From contig JAFXVJ010000043.1 in NCBI GenBank assembly GCA_017524615.1, positions 23,647-87,646 on the forward strand: DNA of 64,000 nt. Direction: 5' to 3'. The notes beneath the pieces are model-generated. The model worked only from the letters and a program-made list of their open reading frames with translations, was not told where the DNA came from and ran no database searches. Origin of the DNA: Clostridia bacterium (lineage in GTDB: Bacteria > Bacillota > Clostridia > Christensenellales > Aristaeellaceae). The position numbers and the translations under genes were made by a program. Shown here piece by piece: positions 40,186 through 62,494 of the stretch (its first letter is position 1; each line of letters opens with the position of its first letter).

Positions 40186-41898
40186 TTACATGCGCTCCGG
40201 GGCGGAGAGACCGATCAGGTACAGCCCGGTCTTGATCACCTGGCGGCAGGCGTCCGTCAATTGCAGGCGGGCGGCCGTGGCGCCGGCATCGTCGTCCAGG
40301 ATGCGGTGCTCGTAATAGAATTTATTGTACGCCTTGGCGATTTCCGTGGTGGCCCGGGTGACCAGGTAAGGCTCGTTCCGCTGGGCAGCTTCCGCCACCG
40401 CCTCCGGGAAGCGGCTGAGCAGCCGGAGCAGGGCCTGGCTTTCGTCATCGGTGAGGGCGGCGTAATCCGGCGCGGCGGTGTTGTCCGGCGCTTTGCGCAG
40501 CACCGAGCAGCACCGGGCGAAGGTATACTGCACGTAGGGGCCCGTTTCCCCGTCAAAATTCAGCGCCCGATCCCACCAGAAGTCGATGTCCTTGATGCGG
40601 TTGTTTTGCAGCGTGGCGTACACCACCGCGCCCACGCCCACCTGACGGGCCACTTCTTCCTTGTTTTCCAGGCCCGGGGATTTTTCTTTGATGATCTCCA
40701 GGGCCTTTTCCCAGGCGCGGGTCAGCAGCTCGTCCAGCAGCACCACGTGGCCCGTGCGGGTGGCCATGGCCTGGCCTTCATAGCTGACCATGCCGAAGGA
40801 TACGTGCTCGCATTCATCCCTGGCCCAATCGTAGCCCATCAGCTCCAGCACCTTGAACAGCTGCCTGAAATGCAGATCCTGCTGGTATGCTACGATATAC
40901 AGGCTTTTATTGAAATGGTAGGTTTCTTTGCGGTAGATGGCGGCGGCAATGTCCCGGGTGTGATACAGCGTGGCGCCGTCGGATTTGAGGATCAGGCAGG
41001 GCGGCATGCCGTATGCTTCCAGGTCCACGATCTTGGCCCCGTCTGAATCCTTCAGCAAGCCTTTTTCTTCCAGCTCGCGGATGACGCGGCCTGTTTTTTG
41101 AGCCATGACGCTTTCGCCGTCGTAGCTGTCGAACTTGACGTCCAGCAGGCCGTAGACCTTCATGGCGTCCCGTAGCGTCACATCCTTGAACCACTGGAAG
41201 ATTTCCAGCGCTTCCGGGTCCCCATCCTCGATCTTTTTGAACCAGGCCCGGCCTTCTTCCTCCAGGGAGGGGTCTGCTTTCGCCTCGTCATTGAAGCGGA
41301 CGTAGAGCTTCGTCATTTCGTCCACGCCGCCCTTTTCCACCTGCTCCCTGTCGCCCCATTTTTTGTAGGCGCAGAGCATTTTGCCGAATTGCGTACCCCA
41401 GTCGCCCAGATAATTGATGGAGACCGTTTTCCAGCCCTGGAAATCATAAATCCTTTTCAGGGAATTGCCGATCACGGTGGTGCTCAGATGACCCAGATGG
41501 AAGCGCTTGGCGATGTTGATGGAGGAATACTCCACGCAGGCCGTTTTGCCCTTGCCGTCCTCGCTGCTGCCCCACTTTTCCGGGGCGGCCAGGATGGCGG
41601 CAAGCAATTCCCGAGCGAAGTTTTCCCTGTTAAAAAAGAAATTCAGATAGCCGCCCACGCACTCCACCCGGGCGATTTCCGGCTTTTCCAGCGTCGCCGC
41701 CAGTTTTTGCGCGATCATGGGCGGGCCCATGCGCAGCGCTTTGCTCAGCTTGAAGCAGGGAAACGCATAATCCCCCATGGCGGGATCGGGCGGCACTTCC
41801 AGCAGGGCGGCCAGATCCTCCGGCAGGCCCTGGGCTTCCGGAAACGCGGCACGGAGCATGTCCCCTGCCAGGTCGGCGATGCGCTGTTTCATATCCAT
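40186..41898 (-). CDS. argS: Arginyl-tRNA synthetase
   Basis: 570 residues, class I. Contains the HIGH motif in the form HLGHL within INIAKRFHLGHL, the catalytic and anticodon domains, and the conserved end SAPERM. The usual KMSKS is replaced by a degenerate loop (VSYEGQAMATRTG), which is normal for many ArgRS. The frame is open 33 codons further upstream; the ATG at 41898 has AAGGA 10 bases upstream and matches family starts. dapF begins 54 bases after its stop. Confidence 0.95.
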   Translation of the reverse strand: MDMKQRIADLAGDMLRAAFPEAQGLPEDLAALLEVPPDPAMGDYAFPCFKLSKALRMGPPMIAQKLAATLEKPEIARVECVGGYLNFFFNRENFARELLAAILAAPEKWGSSEDGKGKTACVEYSSINIAKRFHLGHLSTTVIGNSLKRIYDFQGWKTVSINYLGDWGTQFGKMLCAYKKWGDREQVEKGGVDEMTKLYVRFNDEAKADPSLEEEGRAWFKKIEDGDPEALEIFQWFKDVTLRDAMKVYGLLDVKFDSYDGESVMAQKTGRVIRELEEKGLLKDSDGAKIVDLEAYGMPPCLILKSDGATLYHTRDIAAAIYRKETYHFNKSLYIVAYQQDLHFRQLFKVLELMGYDWARDECEHVSFGMVSYEGQAMATRTGHVVLLDELLTRAWEKALEIIKEKSPGLENKEEVARQVGVGAVVYATLQNNRIKDIDFWWDRALNFDGETGPYVQYTFARCCSVLRKAPDNTAAPDYAALTDDESQALLRLLSRFPEAVAEAAQRNEPYLVTRATTEIAKAYNKFYYEHRILDDDAGATAARLQLTDACRQVIKTGLYLIGLSAPERM

Positions 41899-46345: not shown

Positions 46346-47437
46346 TTATGCCGACAGCTTTTCGTCCAGCCATTGACAGGCAGGGGACAGCAGCTTCATG
46401 AGCGGCGTTTCCAGGACGTATTTGCGCAGGCAATCCGCCAGGGCGCAGGCCAGATAGATGCCCGGGGGAATCAGCAGCGCCCAAAGCCAGAAAGTGCCGC
46501 GCTGGCACAAGGTCCAGATCTGCAGCCAGGTGCGCCAGATCATATCCCGCATCAGGCTGTGATCGTGAATCAGGTACACCCCAAAGGATGCGCCGGACAG
46601 CACGGTCAGCAGGGCCGAGGAGCTGACGCGCAGATTTGCGAAAAACAGAAACAGCGCGCAGGAGCAAATCAACTGGGGAATGGTGTTCTTATCGGCAAAG
46701 AAATTATGCCGGCTGCCAACGCGCTGGAAGAGCTCAGCATGCTCTTCGCCCCACAGGCAGGAAAGGGCGATGAAGGCCAGGGACAGCGCAAAGACTGCGG
46801 CGTGGAGCGGTATGCAGCGGGTCACCCGGCTGGGATACTTGCGAAAGAACGCGCCCAGCACATAGAGGAAAAAGAACCAGATGAGCTGGTGAAAATACGG
46901 GGAAGCGGGATCCTGAAAGGTGAGGGTGGGAATGACGCACAGGTACAGCGCGGCCACGGCCAGCACCCAGGCATGCGCGCGTTTCCCCAAACGCTGGACC
47001 GCGGGCTGCAAAAGGGGCAGCAGGGCGGTCATCGCCGCATACATGGTGACGAACCAATAGGGGCTGCGGGCGAGCACAAAGGCCGATCGCAGCACGGCAT
47101 CATCTGTCACGTCCTGCCGCCAGCCGGTCCACCGGCACAGCAGCGTCAGGCCCACGGAATAAAACAGCGTTTGCAGCAGGATGCTCACGAGGCGCTTGGC
47201 CCGAAAGGGCGCCAGAAAATAGCCGGTGATGAGCACAAAGCTGTTGACGCCCGTCATGCCGCCGGAAAACAGCACCGTGGCCAGCACCTTGTTGGTCCGC
47301 AGGGGAGCGTGCATGGCCACCCCATGATAGGCCAGGTGGTGGGCGATGATCATGAGCATGCACACGATGCGCAGCAATTCTATATTGCCCTCCCGCTTTT
47401 TCACAGGCGAGAGGGCAGGCGCGGCCAGGGCCGTCAT
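46346..47437 (-). CDS. Acyltransferase 3 family membrane protein
   Basis: 363 residues, about ten membrane helices. The first helices carry REGNIELLRIVCMLMIIAHHLAYHG with the conserved His pair, then FVLITGYFLAPF; the fold is that of OafA/WecH-like O-acetyltransferases acting on surface polysaccharide or lipid sugars. It starts inside the serS stop (AATGA) and so is translationally coupled with serS, a strange partner for a tRNA synthetase. Substrate unknown. Confidence 0.85.
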   Translation of the reverse strand: MTALAAPALSPVKKREGNIELLRIVCMLMIIAHHLAYHGVAMHAPLRTNKVLATVLFSGGMTGVNSFVLITGYFLAPFRAKRLVSILLQTLFYSVGLTLLCRWTGWRQDVTDDAVLRSAFVLARSPYWFVTMYAAMTALLPLLQPAVQRLGKRAHAWVLAVAALYLCVIPTLTFQDPASPYFHQLIWFFFLYVLGAFFRKYPSRVTRCIPLHAAVFALSLAFIALSCLWGEEHAELFQRVGSRHNFFADKNTIPQLICSCALFLFFANLRVSSSALLTVLSGASFGVYLIHDHSLMRDMIWRTWLQIWTLCQRGTFWLWALLIPPGIYLACALADCLRKYVLETPLMKLLSPACQWLDEKLSA

Positions 47438-48711
47438 TTGATTGTGTCGCTGTGCATGTAGGGACGCAGCGGCTCGGGAATGCGGATGGAGCCATCTTCA
47501 TTCAGGTTGTTTTCCAGGAAAGCGATCAGCATGCGGGGCGGGGCCACGACGGTGTTGTTCAGGGTGTGGGGCAGATATTTCTTGCCGTCCGCGCCCTTGA
47601 CCCGGATGCCCAGGCGGCGGGCCTGCGCGTCGCCCAGATTGGAGCAGCTGCCCACTTCGAAGTACTTCTGCTGCCGGGGGCTCCACGCCTCCACGTCGCA
47701 GGATTTCACCTTCAGGTCAGCCAGGTCGCCGGAGCAGCACTCCAGGGTGCGCACCGGGATATCCATGCTGCGGAAGAAGTCGACCGTGTTCTGCCACAGG
47801 CGGTCATACCACATCATGCTGTCCTCCGGCTTGCACACCACGATCATTTCCTGCTTTTCGAACTGGTGGATGCGGTACACGCCTCTTTCTTCGATGCCGT
47901 GGGCGCCCACCTCCTTGCGGAAGCAGGGGGAATAGCTGGTCAGGGTCTGGGGCAGTTCGCTTTCGTCCAGGATCTGGTCGATGAACTTGCCGATCATGCT
48001 GTGCTCGCTGGTGCCGATCAGGTACAGATCCTCGCCCTCGATTTTGTACATCATGTTTTCCATTTCGGAAAAGCTCATCACGCCGTTCACCACGGCGCTG
48101 CGGATCATGAAGGGGGGCACATAATAGGTAAATCCGCGGTCGATCATGAAATCCCGGGCGTAGGAGAGGATCGAGCTGTGCAGCCGGGCGATATCGCCCT
48201 TCAGGTAATAGAAGCCGTTGCCGGAGGTGCGGCGTGCGGCGTCCAGGTCGATGCCGTTCAGGCGCTCCATGATATCCACGTGGTAGGGGATTTCAAAGGG
48301 CGGCACCACGGGCTCGCCAAAGCGCTCGTTTTCCACGTTCTGGCTGTCGTCCTTCCCAATGGGCACGGAAGGATCGATGATCTGCGGGATCACCATCATG
48401 CGCTTCTTGATTTCCTCGGCGTATTCGCCTTCCTTGATTTCCAGGGCGGCCAATTCGTCCTGCATGTCCTTGACCTGCTGCTTGGCCTGTTCGGCCTCGT
48501 CCTTCTTGCCCTGGCCCATCAGCGCGCCGATCTGCTTGCTGATCTTGTTGCGCTGGGAGCGCAGGAAGTCCGCCCGCTGAATGGCTTCGCGGTTCTTTTT
48601 GTCCAGGTCCAGCACTTCGTCCACCAGGGGCAGTTTCTGATCCTGGAATTTCTTTTTGATGTTTTCCCTTACCAGATCGGGGTTGGTCCGAATGAGGTTG
48701 ATGTCGATCAT
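47434..48711 (-). CDS. serS: Seryl-tRNA synthetase with an atypical active-site motif
   Basis: 425 residues. The long coiled-coil arm that grips tRNA-Ser is at about 25-105 (LVDEVLDLDKKNREAIQRA and on). The catalytic core is class II, but motif 2 reads FRKEVGAHGIEERGVYRIHQFEKQ where most bacterial SerRS have FRxEAGSAGRDTRGLxRxHQF. Motif 3 is NNTVVAPPRMLIAFLENN. The form resembles SerRS seen in archaea and a minority of bacteria (inference). Start MIDINLIRTNPDLV fits the family; AGGAAG is 7 bases upstream. It is controlled by a T-box leader and a hairpin array and is followed by the coupled acyltransferase gene. Confidence 0.92.
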   Translation of the reverse strand: MIDINLIRTNPDLVRENIKKKFQDQKLPLVDEVLDLDKKNREAIQRADFLRSQRNKISKQIGALMGQGKKDEAEQAKQQVKDMQDELAALEIKEGEYAEEIKKRMMVIPQIIDPSVPIGKDDSQNVENERFGEPVVPPFEIPYHVDIMERLNGIDLDAARRTSGNGFYYLKGDIARLHSSILSYARDFMIDRGFTYYVPPFMIRSAVVNGVMSFSEMENMMYKIEGEDLYLIGTSEHSMIGKFIDQILDESELPQTLTSYSPCFRKEVGAHGIEERGVYRIHQFEKQEMIVVCKPEDSMMWYDRLWQNTVDFFRSMDIPVRTLECCSGDLADLKVKSCDVEAWSPRQQKYFEVGSCSNLGDAQARRLGIRVKGADGKKYLPHTLNNTVVAPPRMLIAFLENNLNEDGSIRIPEPLRPYMHSDTIK

Positions 48712-48728
48712 GAGGCTACTTCCTTTCT

Positions 48729-49083
48729 TTTGGATGCCTGCCGCTTTTCCATACGGAAGCGGCAGGACGCGCCACGGCTCCGCCCGTGCGCTCATCTTTT
48801 TTTGGATGCCTGCCGCTTTTCCCTACGGAAGCGGCAGGACGCGCCACGGCTCCGCCCGTACGCTCATCTTTTTTTGGATGCCTGCCGCTTTTCCCTACGG
48901 AAGCGGCAGGACGCGCCACGGCTCCGCCCGTGCGCTCATCTTTTTTTGGATGCCTGCCGCTTTTCCATACGGAAGCGGCAGGACGCGCCACGGCTTCGCC
49001 CGTGCGCTCATCTTTTTTGGATGCCCGCCGCTTTTCCCTACGGAAGCGGCGGGACGCGCCACGGCTCCGCCCGTGCGCTCATC
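48729..49083. repeat. Five tandem 72-base hairpin units between the T-box and serS
   Basis: Units start at 48732, 48804, 48876, 48948 and 49019 (period 72, 72, 72, 71). Each is nearly identical and has two stems: CCTGCCGCTT with AAGCGGCAGG, and CACGG with CCGTG. In the last unit both arms change together (CCCGCCGCTT with AAGCGGCGGG), so pairing is kept. In the serS mRNA the array forms about ten hairpins between the T-box terminator and the start codon. A minus-strand frame of 24-residue repeats (ARPAASVGKSGRHPKKDERT type) runs through four units and stops 4 bases before the serS start codon. Confidence 0.9.
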
Positions 49084-49086
49084 CTT

Positions 49087-49310
49087 GAAATAAAAAATCC
49101 TCCTGTCCCTCATCTGGGACGGAAGGTATCCGCGTTGCCACCCAGCTTGCGCGGAAGTTTCTGCGCCGCTCGACGGCGCTGTAAGGGGCGCGCCCCGGCG
49201 ATTCCTCATCGCCCGCTCCGGGATGGATCGCGCCGTGCTCCAGCTGCCTCGCACCGAACCGGCAGTTCTCTGGATGAAGCGTCCGCCGCCATGTCCCTTC
49301 CACGCGGTAT
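49087..49310 (-). promoter_or_regulatory. T-box riboswitch in the serS leader
   Basis: The T-box sequence TGGGTGGCAACGCGG (49130-49144 on this strand) is the binding site for the uncharged tRNA acceptor end. Upstream lie an AGAGAACTGCC distal stem-loop (about 49260) and a GATCCATCCC segment (about 49220) in which TCC is a possible serine specifier codon. Downstream CCGTCCC/GGGACAGG is the terminator hairpin followed by TTTTTT at 49087-49124. Uncharged tRNA-Ser would turn off the terminator and allow serS expression. Confidence 0.88.
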
Positions 49311-49316
49311 GGGGAT

Positions 49317-49345
49317 ATCATAGCACCAAAGCGCCTAAAATGCAA
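49317..49345 (-). promoter_or_regulatory. Promoter of serS
   Basis: TTGCAT, 17-base spacer, TATGAT on the minus strand; transcription would start near 49310, exactly at the beginning of the T-box leader. The full leader is about 600 bases. Confidence 0.65.
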
Positions 49346-49461: not shown

Positions 49462-50319
49462 TTATTTCCGCGCTTCCAGCAGGGAGGTCATCACCGGGCT
49501 GGAGCGCTTGCCCAGCAGGGGATGCCGGTGTTCCAGGGTGGCCAGGGCGATTTCCACGTCCTCATGCACTTCGTCCGGGGTGAATGCGCCCAAGGTGACC
49601 ATGTCGCAGGGGCGCAGGGTGGTGTAGCTGAAGGTAAGGCCCACAAACGGCGTGCACCGGCCCGCCGCCATGGATTTGATGGTCATTACGGGCTTTTTGG
49701 CGTTCCAGATCACGCTGTTCACGCCTTCCACCTCCACCTGCATCAAAAAGCCCATGCAGTTATAGATCTGGATATAGGTCTGGACGTCGTATTCATTGTC
49801 GTCGGAATACTGGATCAGCTCCGGCATATGGGCGGACAGGCCGGGGATCATGCCGTGCTGGCGGATCATGTCCAGATAATCGGGCAGCCGGTCCATGGTG
49901 CGGCGGTTTTTATTCACCAGCTGCTCCGCGGAGGCATGATGGATCAGGCAGAAGGTCGCCCCGTCTTTGGCGCACTGGCGGATGGTCTTTTCCGCCTCCG
50001 CCCGGGCCGCCGCGCTGTCATCCACGTTGATGCCGGGGGTGACGATCTGGATGATGGGACGTTGATAGGCTTCCTCCACCCGGTGAATGGCTTGACGCAT
50101 GGGGGTGCCTTCGGTGAAATTGGGCGCCATCATGGCGTCGATGCCGTATTGCATGTAGGCGTCCAGCAGCAACGCGGTGTTTTCCGGGTTCGCGTGCCTG
50201 CGCTTGATCATATCGTCGGCCGCCGGCCCGGTATGGCTGTAGCCCAGGATCCAATTGGTGCCGATCAGCATGCGGGGCAGGGATTGCCCAGCGACCTCCG
50301 TGCGCGGAAACTGCGTCAT
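49462..50319 (-). CDS. Conserved protein of unknown function, possible TIM-barrel enzyme
   Basis: 285 residues, cytoplasmic. The pattern of alternating hydrophobic strands and helices (MLIGTNWILGYSHTG, ALLLDAYMQYGIDAMMAPN, PIIQIVTPGIN, TFCLIHHASAEQLV, YLDMIRQHGMIPGLSAHM, PVMTIKSMAAGRCTP) suggests an alpha/beta barrel with candidate catalytic HH and K residues, but I cannot name the family. SD GGAGGAG is 5 bases before the ATG at 50319; the longer upstream frame is not needed. The 116-base gap before the serS promoter has a GC-rich hairpin near 49411-49436 that may end its transcript. Confidence 0.75.
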   Translation of the reverse strand: MTQFPRTEVAGQSLPRMLIGTNWILGYSHTGPAADDMIKRRHANPENTALLLDAYMQYGIDAMMAPNFTEGTPMRQAIHRVEEAYQRPIIQIVTPGINVDDSAAARAEAEKTIRQCAKDGATFCLIHHASAEQLVNKNRRTMDRLPDYLDMIRQHGMIPGLSAHMPELIQYSDDNEYDVQTYIQIYNCMGFLMQVEVEGVNSVIWNAKKPVMTIKSMAAGRCTPFVGLTFSYTTLRPCDMVTLGAFTPDEVHEDVEIALATLEHRHPLLGKRSSPVMTSLLEARK

Positions 50320-50418
50320 TCGATCTCCTCCTGTCGTTCTGTTCGCTTTTTTTGTTTCATTATAACGCGGGAAGGGGAAAAAGTCTACAATATATTTCAC
50401 CGCCCTGCTATTATTGGC

Positions 50419-62335: not shown

Positions 62336-62494
62336 GTGCTCCTCCCGCGTTCGTAAAGAATTTGAAACACAGTCTTGATGTTTAGACCTTAATGCTCGGC
62401 GTGCGCCCATTCGCGCCCACCGGGACAGAAAGCCGCGCTTTCTTCGCTATCATACCATAATAATCCCGGGTTGTACAGGCCGAGTTTCGGCGCG

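Follow-up and report, generated by a model that had tools for sequence, protein, structure and literature searches.

A dispersed folded repeat, probably an insertion element of -10 boxes and Shine-Dalgarno sites, forms the tandem array in the serS leader of a Clostridia bacterium

Introduction

The BOX, RUP and SPRITE repeats of Streptococcus pneumoniae are, according to the passages of the source that deal with them, short and dispersed, predicted to fold when transcribed and probably non-autonomous; BOX elements hold a variable number of tandem boxB modules between distinct boxA and boxC ends (PMC3049150). Bacterial MITEs are characterized in the same passages by a high AT content, inverted repeats at their ends and duplications of the target (PMC3049150). 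REPINs, which need a RAYT, are built from a pair of inverted REPs with a spacer between them, and local amplification has been proposed for them in the part of the literature cited here (PMC8049555).

The repeat unit described here, of which five tandem copies lie in the leader of serS, resembles BOX, RUP and SPRITE in being short, dispersed, folded and probably non-autonomous (PMC3049150). Going by the published description, its anatomy differs from that of BOX, with its boxA-boxB(n)-boxC order, in that here whole units repeat together with a TATAAT or purine linker, and it also differs in sitting at the -10 box or the Shine-Dalgarno sequence. Like REPINs, as these are portrayed in the cited passages, it is a short non-autonomous folded repeat replicated within a genome (PMC8049555); unlike them, it combines a closing stem with two dissimilar hairpins, and 16 of 20 carriers yielded no Y1 gene. 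With MITEs, as outlined above, it shares its small size, fold, non-coding nature and dispersal, and it differs from them in that its copies are G+C-rich and its terminal 4 bp covary. The T-box family (RF00230) is represented at this locus by the leader upstream of the array, of which the units are no part. Integron cassettes and IS200/IS605 elements insert at a short core that remains on either side of the insert, and their arrays share one orientation. The outcome proposed here would be formally the same, and a Y1 gene is mostly not found in the carriers.

Results

T-box terminator and ribosome site of serS are separated by a tandem array

In the window, by which we mean the whole stretch of 64,000 nucleotides that was analysed, the 5' region of serS runs on the minus strand from a promoter-like site through T-box, terminator and five units (48733-49083) to CAAAAGAAAGGAAGTAGCCTC and the start codon (Table 1). 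An earlier note had described five tandem units of about 72 nt behind the T-box and its terminator and before serS, and both their number and their position ahead of the ribosome site are borne out: Tandem Repeats Finder reports 48723-49083 with a period of 72, 5.0 copies, 96% matches and a score of 664, the second-best tandem array of the window scoring 60. Successive units are spaced 71, 72, 72 and 72 nt apart. The leader aligns to the full RF00230 model (1-219) ahead of a seryl-tRNA synthetase gene; its 76.2 bits lie below the gathering score of 93, so that a default Rfam scan of the window reports nothing. The expected serine specifier position of the T-box (49205-49240, minus strand) holds a UCC triplet, as it does by eye in four comparison leaders (L055, L056, L066, L081). 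A simple consensus scan returned no promoters, missed both the promoter-like site and the T-box terminator of serS, and gave a single terminator-like site elsewhere (49403-49381, minus strand).

Table 1 Features of the serS leader and its repeat array.
Feature	Position	Strand	Basis
serS, seryl-tRNA synthetase	47434..48711	-	PF02403 + PF00587 (N-terminal and class II core domains)
Right linker with Shine-Dalgarno AAAGGA	48712..48732	-	sequence reading
Unit 5, adjoins ribosome site	48733..48796	-	R1, 93.9 bits
Unit 4	48805..48868	-	R1, 89.1 bits
Unit 3	48877..48940	-	R1, 92.8 bits
Unit 2	48949..49012	-	R1, 94.1 bits
Unit 1, first in mRNA; paired change CCCGCC/GGCGGG	49020..49083	-	R1, 93.2 bits
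T-box terminator stem and T-run	49092..49126	-	by eye; part of stem in whole-array fold
T-box leader, RF00230	49112..49311	-	76.2 bits, E 1.5e-16, gathering score 93
Promoter-like TTGCAT-17-TATGAT of serS leader	49317..49345	-	by eye

The units themselves matched no Rfam family above its gathering score in the window; between 48600 and 49500, at up to E 1, the sole match besides the T-box was ctRNA_pGA1 on the plus strand (17.6 bits, gathering score 45). A coding repeat was considered, as some frames stay open through the 72-nt period, yet it is unlikely because other arrays are spaced at 74, 75 and 76, which do not keep to multiples of three, and because the stems change in pairs. The unit adjoining serS (48709-48795, minus strand) contains an ATG in the serS frame that would allow a 28-residue N-terminal extension, and three of the five units have a TAG stop in that frame. 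An antisense terminator was likewise set aside: each unit is followed by a T-run on the plus strand, but the long open reading frame at 49462-50400 runs with serS, and the simple scan reported no plus-strand terminator. That reading frame, upstream of serS on the minus strand, encodes 312 aa and has no Pfam match at E 0.001.

Each unit folds into a three-way junction whose stems covary

The unit forms a three-way junction in which two unlike hairpins are enclosed by a 4-bp closing stem; it is non-coding and measures 64-69 nt, followed by a right linker of about 7-13 nt. The G+C content of the copies is mostly 0.6-0.75, the lowest value being 0.56. Two stems per unit had been noticed before and both are present, to which the closing stem (GATG/CATC) is now added as a third. 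Folded on the sense strand, three of the five serS units gave z values of -2.6, -3.0 and -4.1 against shuffles. In the fold of the whole array the near-identical units are mixed, which makes it unreliable. A sequestering of the ribosome site was considered as well: in one local fold the purine linker is predicted to have its two ends paired as a weak hairpin of 3 bp, and the closing stem to open and pair with serS codons.

Across 90 matches to covariance model R1 (78 distinct), the two hairpins and the closing stem are paired in 97.0% of cells, as compared with 78.3% for shuffles and 32-47% for slid versions of the structure, and two-sided changes occur in 21 of 22 pairs. This alignment was fitted to the hairpins of R1; the closing stem, which lies outside R1, is 97.4% paired and shows two-sided changes in four of four pairs. 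A second set of 39 copies, used for model R2, has 97.8% of cells paired and two-sided changes in 13 of 26 pairs, with seven of the 11 pairs of the first hairpin invariant; in all such counts, kinship among copies inflates covariation. The terminal 4 bp of the unit are this closing stem, whose letters change in pairs, and there is no fixed terminal inverted repeat. The units thus vary with their stems kept paired by two-sided changes, and the suggestion that the main stem matters is upheld by covariation across copies. The paired change from CCTGCC/GGCAGG to CCCGCC/GGCGGG, on which that suggestion had rested, is real; its placement needs correction. With serS read from the minus strand, it is the altered unit that comes first in the mRNA, beside the T-box terminator and away from the start codon. 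The loop region of the first hairpin contains a c-GNA-g word in 152 of 201 copies. In DNA, loops of the c-GNA-g type have a very high stability.

The unit belongs to a family dispersed in one genus

The search for the unit in related genomes that had been proposed revealed a dispersed family. With the whole serS leader as query, 36 of 60 relatives gave matches, many in the T-box alone, and the array part also matched many other places in genomes of the same genus. Forty places were fetched initially; leaving aside the serS comparison loci, the unit stands there before unrelated genes, often with a Shine-Dalgarno sequence directly 3', although the BLAST query behind these 40 included the serS flanks and thereby favoured neighbours of Shine-Dalgarno sites. 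Within its own genome the 72-nt unit has five matches at high identity, all in the serS array, the next match having E 0.3.

Two covariance models were built, R1 from 33 copies and R2 from 39 copies of the AACGAGG/GATGAGG type, and run against a panel of 29 genomes of the genus, all of them incomplete assemblies. R1 matched 20 of the 29 at E 0.001, and 20 of 200 genomes of the family, seven of these 20 belonging to the genus. R2 matched 21 of the 29 at E 1e-4. In wide draws, where stricter filters lose weak matches, it was found in four of 396 genomes of the order (two of the genus and two of the family) and in one of 391 genomes of the class, the genome of the window itself. There, R2 has 31 places at E 0.01, several tandem, several directly 3' of TATAAT and some at contig ends. 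In the window it recovers the five serS units and two weak matches (62391-62448, minus strand, 19.4 bits, E 0.02; 40244-40294, plus strand, 16.5 bits, E 0.09), which may be decayed copies or chance. Other arrays of the family in this genome run into contig ends (L082 on C44, L083 on C7, and the ends of C43 and C12), suggesting that the repeats break assembly and that copy numbers may be underestimated.

An exact pattern of the serS-type core occurred in 40 stretches of an 84,980-species collection, from records titled as MAGs of Clostridia, Clostridiales or Christensenellaceae, many of which name ruminants. The same pattern had no matches in IMG/VR, where diverged copies would escape it, and a phage origin was set aside on this result. 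In openly licensed articles we found no description of an element with such a target.

Copies stand directly 3' of -10 hexamers or 5' of Shine-Dalgarno sites

From 140 fetched loci and the window, 201 copies were collected into 139 arrays, which form 122 clusters by downstream flank. Arrays of at least two copies make up 40 of the 139, tandem copies thus being a property of the family. Flanks were counted in 136 arrays, the three arrays lacking a flank being omitted. An exact TATAAT lies in the left 14 nt of 61 arrays, as compared with 0.4% of 2780 random windows, and the reverse word ATTATA in one. When one mismatch is allowed, 74 arrays have TATAAT on the left, with a gap to the element of 0 in 45 and of 3 in 22. 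On the right, 31 of the 136 have an exact TATAAT within 14 nt and 86 a Shine-Dalgarno-like word within 20 nt; the right end of the insert often provides a fresh TATAAT or purine tract. An exact TATAAT is absent from the left side of 75 of the 136, and in 19 both signals are missing, TATAAT on the left as well as a Shine-Dalgarno-like word on the right. To allow for the bias of the first 40 loci, the count was repeated on loci picked by the model (L082-L181), which gave TATAAT on the left in 54 of 102 and ATTATA in none.

Copies are also oriented with respect to the gene that follows. By gene calls from our own codon-usage script, the next gene is in sense direction for 108 of 126 arrays and antisense for 18, a count that omits 11 arrays without a called right gene and two of the 139 that lie inside a called gene. 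At the model-picked loci the next gene is sense in 76 cases, antisense in 16 and not called in 11, and with one array per flank cluster the figures are 92 sense and 18 antisense. Upstream genes are divided evenly (61 sense, 60 antisense). Forty-four of the 108 sense arrays end 15-29 nt 5' of the called start codon. The downstream proteins are mixed (uvrB-, lepA-, proA- and ABC-transporter-like, among others, as named from their N-termini), and no common theme is apparent among them.

A GACGAGG..CGTC subtype (L059, L060, L136, L138, L139, L140 and L147 in G007; L129 in G013) is flanked by AGGGATTAGGG / AGGGAATAGGG repeats in place of TATAAT and is tied more loosely to gene direction. Its copies in G007 account for four of the 18 antisense cases.

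Orthologous sites are mostly empty

The serS leader was read in 26 of the 29 genomes of the genus (G008, G016 and G025 are not included), and all 26 have the T-box and terminator. Units are present in three of them, namely the genome of the window (five), G028 (two) and G011 (one), while 17 have a short spacer and six (G003, G004, G010, G013, G019 and G023) other inserts that are palindromic by eye. An empty spacer reads TTTTCAG|GAGG in G009 and TTTTCAG|GAAAGG in G026, and the filled one TTTTCAG-element-CGATAAG|GAGG in G011. The units of G028 have a different variable stem at the same site, which may thus have been entered more than once. The earlier proposal of a device linked to the T-box is not supported by this comparison: units are missing from 23 of 26 serS T-box leaders of the genus, the element precedes many unrelated genes, and no reason is left to tie a second layer of control to the T-box. 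The six other inserts (L014, L021, L022, L024, L025, L079) are, for example, of the type GAGT.CAGAGTACAGAGT...CTCTGTACTCTGCACTC, of an AAGTTC type or of a GTGTGGAGT type, and the serS spacer looks like a site that tolerates several repeat families.

Further ortholog sets were scanned with R2. At the promoter of an ABC transporter, read in 28 genomes, R2 elements occur in G007 (one), G023 (four) and G002 (three), each array beginning directly 3' of TATAAT, and a decayed copy is visible by eye in G014; the other 24 are without the element, G028 perhaps retaining a remnant. At proA only G003 has an R2 element among 23 loci read, several of the others lying in different surroundings and not being comparable, and G016 and G023 show the uninterrupted sequence TATAATATGC...GGGAGGGATGARC. 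At a permease gene (18 loci) the element is present in sense direction in G003, G006 and G025, and the copy found in G007 is antisense and belongs to that genome's own subtype.

Arrays appear to have grown in more than one way

Of 62 pairs of neighbouring copies, 29 share at least 90% identity and 21 less than 70%. The promoter array of G023 (L175) has four units of at least two kinds, whose neighbours are 0.67, 0.94 and 0.61 alike; such unlike neighbours are most simply read as the outcome of repeated insertion at a TATAAT that had been rebuilt. Neighbours in the serS array, at 0.94-0.98, suggest duplication, which probably enlarged this array.

Discussion

The element is dispersed in one genus of ruminant-gut Clostridia and in a few relatives from the family, and occupies a strand-specific place, directly 3' of the TATAAT -10 hexamer or directly 5' of the Shine-Dalgarno sequence. 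The serS units stand outside the tRNA-sensing switch, and the element appears to rebuild the signal at its point of insertion. We therefore regard the five units as probable copies of an insertion element, small and non-autonomous, with the -10 box or the Shine-Dalgarno site as its target. The strand of the target would set the orientation, leaving copies in sense direction at the heads of genes, and an insert that regenerates its target would let further copies enter at the same place. In serS the element would have entered the spacer between terminator and Shine-Dalgarno sequence, after which the near-identical copies would have arisen mostly through tandem duplication. Since the units lie 3' of the terminator, they would be present in read-through transcripts; judged from the sequence, an effect on serS expression is possible and would be a by-product.

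A rather unlikely alternative is a MITE whose transposase makes a target duplication of about 10 bp. Near-identical 10-mers do flank some copies, as in proA of G003 with ATGTTATAAT on both sides, and in 46 single copies the two flanking 10-mers are slightly more alike than shuffled partners (7.17 vs 6.87, sd 0.09, p ~0.001). However, where the left word is not ATGG (n=38), the right word is ATGG in 12 copies and equal to the left in three; at the ABC-transporter promoter of G007 the left side retains ATGC as in its relative G013 and the right side has ATGG; and the paired variation of the terminal 4 bp leaves no fixed terminal repeat. Irrespective of the left word, the right word is for the most part ATGG. 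We lean towards a right word that is mostly carried by the element rather than duplicated from the target.

We think it unlikely that the element is a cis-acting regulatory RNA, a three-way junction before the ribosome site that acts by binding a protein or ligand or by protecting the mRNA, and that has spread and been amplified because it helps expression. Its sense orientation (108 of 126), its nearness to Shine-Dalgarno sequences and its covarying stems would fit this role. Against it stand the mostly empty orthologous sites and the mixed downstream genes. Moreover, where TATAAT adjoins the element with no gap, transcription starting about 7 nt 3' would omit part of the closing stem, yet this stem covaries, and a strand-specific target accounts for the orientation without selection.

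An element of the REPIN/RAYT or IS200/IS605 type, moved by a Y1 transposase, is improbable. An element with folded ends that inserts strand-specifically 3' of a short word would fit the single-stranded transposition of IS200/IS605 elements, but PF01797 was detected in six of the 29 genomes of the genus, four of the 20 R1 carriers and two of the nine others, and the case for a Y1 or RAYT partner is weakened accordingly, although with incomplete assemblies some of the 16 carriers in which it was not found may owe its absence to lost contigs. Finally, a minisatellite confined to serS and grown by slippage or unequal crossing-over, to which the 94-98% likeness of serS neighbours and the lack of a high-identity unit elsewhere in the same genome would point, is very improbable and as a full explanation refuted by dispersed copies, the unit lying at many loci in other genomes and relatives of it elsewhere in its own.

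As regards the route by which the insertion element would spread, we tentatively suggest a DNA form of the copies, either single-stranded and folded or a small circle, which would join its target at a short core; the alternative route is a transposon with a target duplication of about 10 bp. A speculative extension, which we hold with similar reserve, is a minimal mobile element of about 75-80 nt without any gene, whose core is the -10 hexamer or, in one branch, the Shine-Dalgarno sequence, and which would regenerate this core as it moves in a single-stranded, folded form or as a circle. No autonomous copy was seen among the 102 first-hairpin motifs of the sequence examined; five were flagged by script as lacking the second arm pair, and all five show a mismatched second hairpin.

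If such a minimal element with the -10 hexamer as its core exists, promoters would gather element-TGGTATAAT units into arrays in the manner of cassettes, and every unit would bring an extended -10 box of its own. Possible transcription starts would thereby be multiplied, and many genes would gain a folded 5' leader. The filled and empty promoters of one gene in different species are natural experiments on such a leader, and they point to a putative recombination enzyme. Inserting at the -10 box and rebuilding it would be a harmless way to live in a compact genome.
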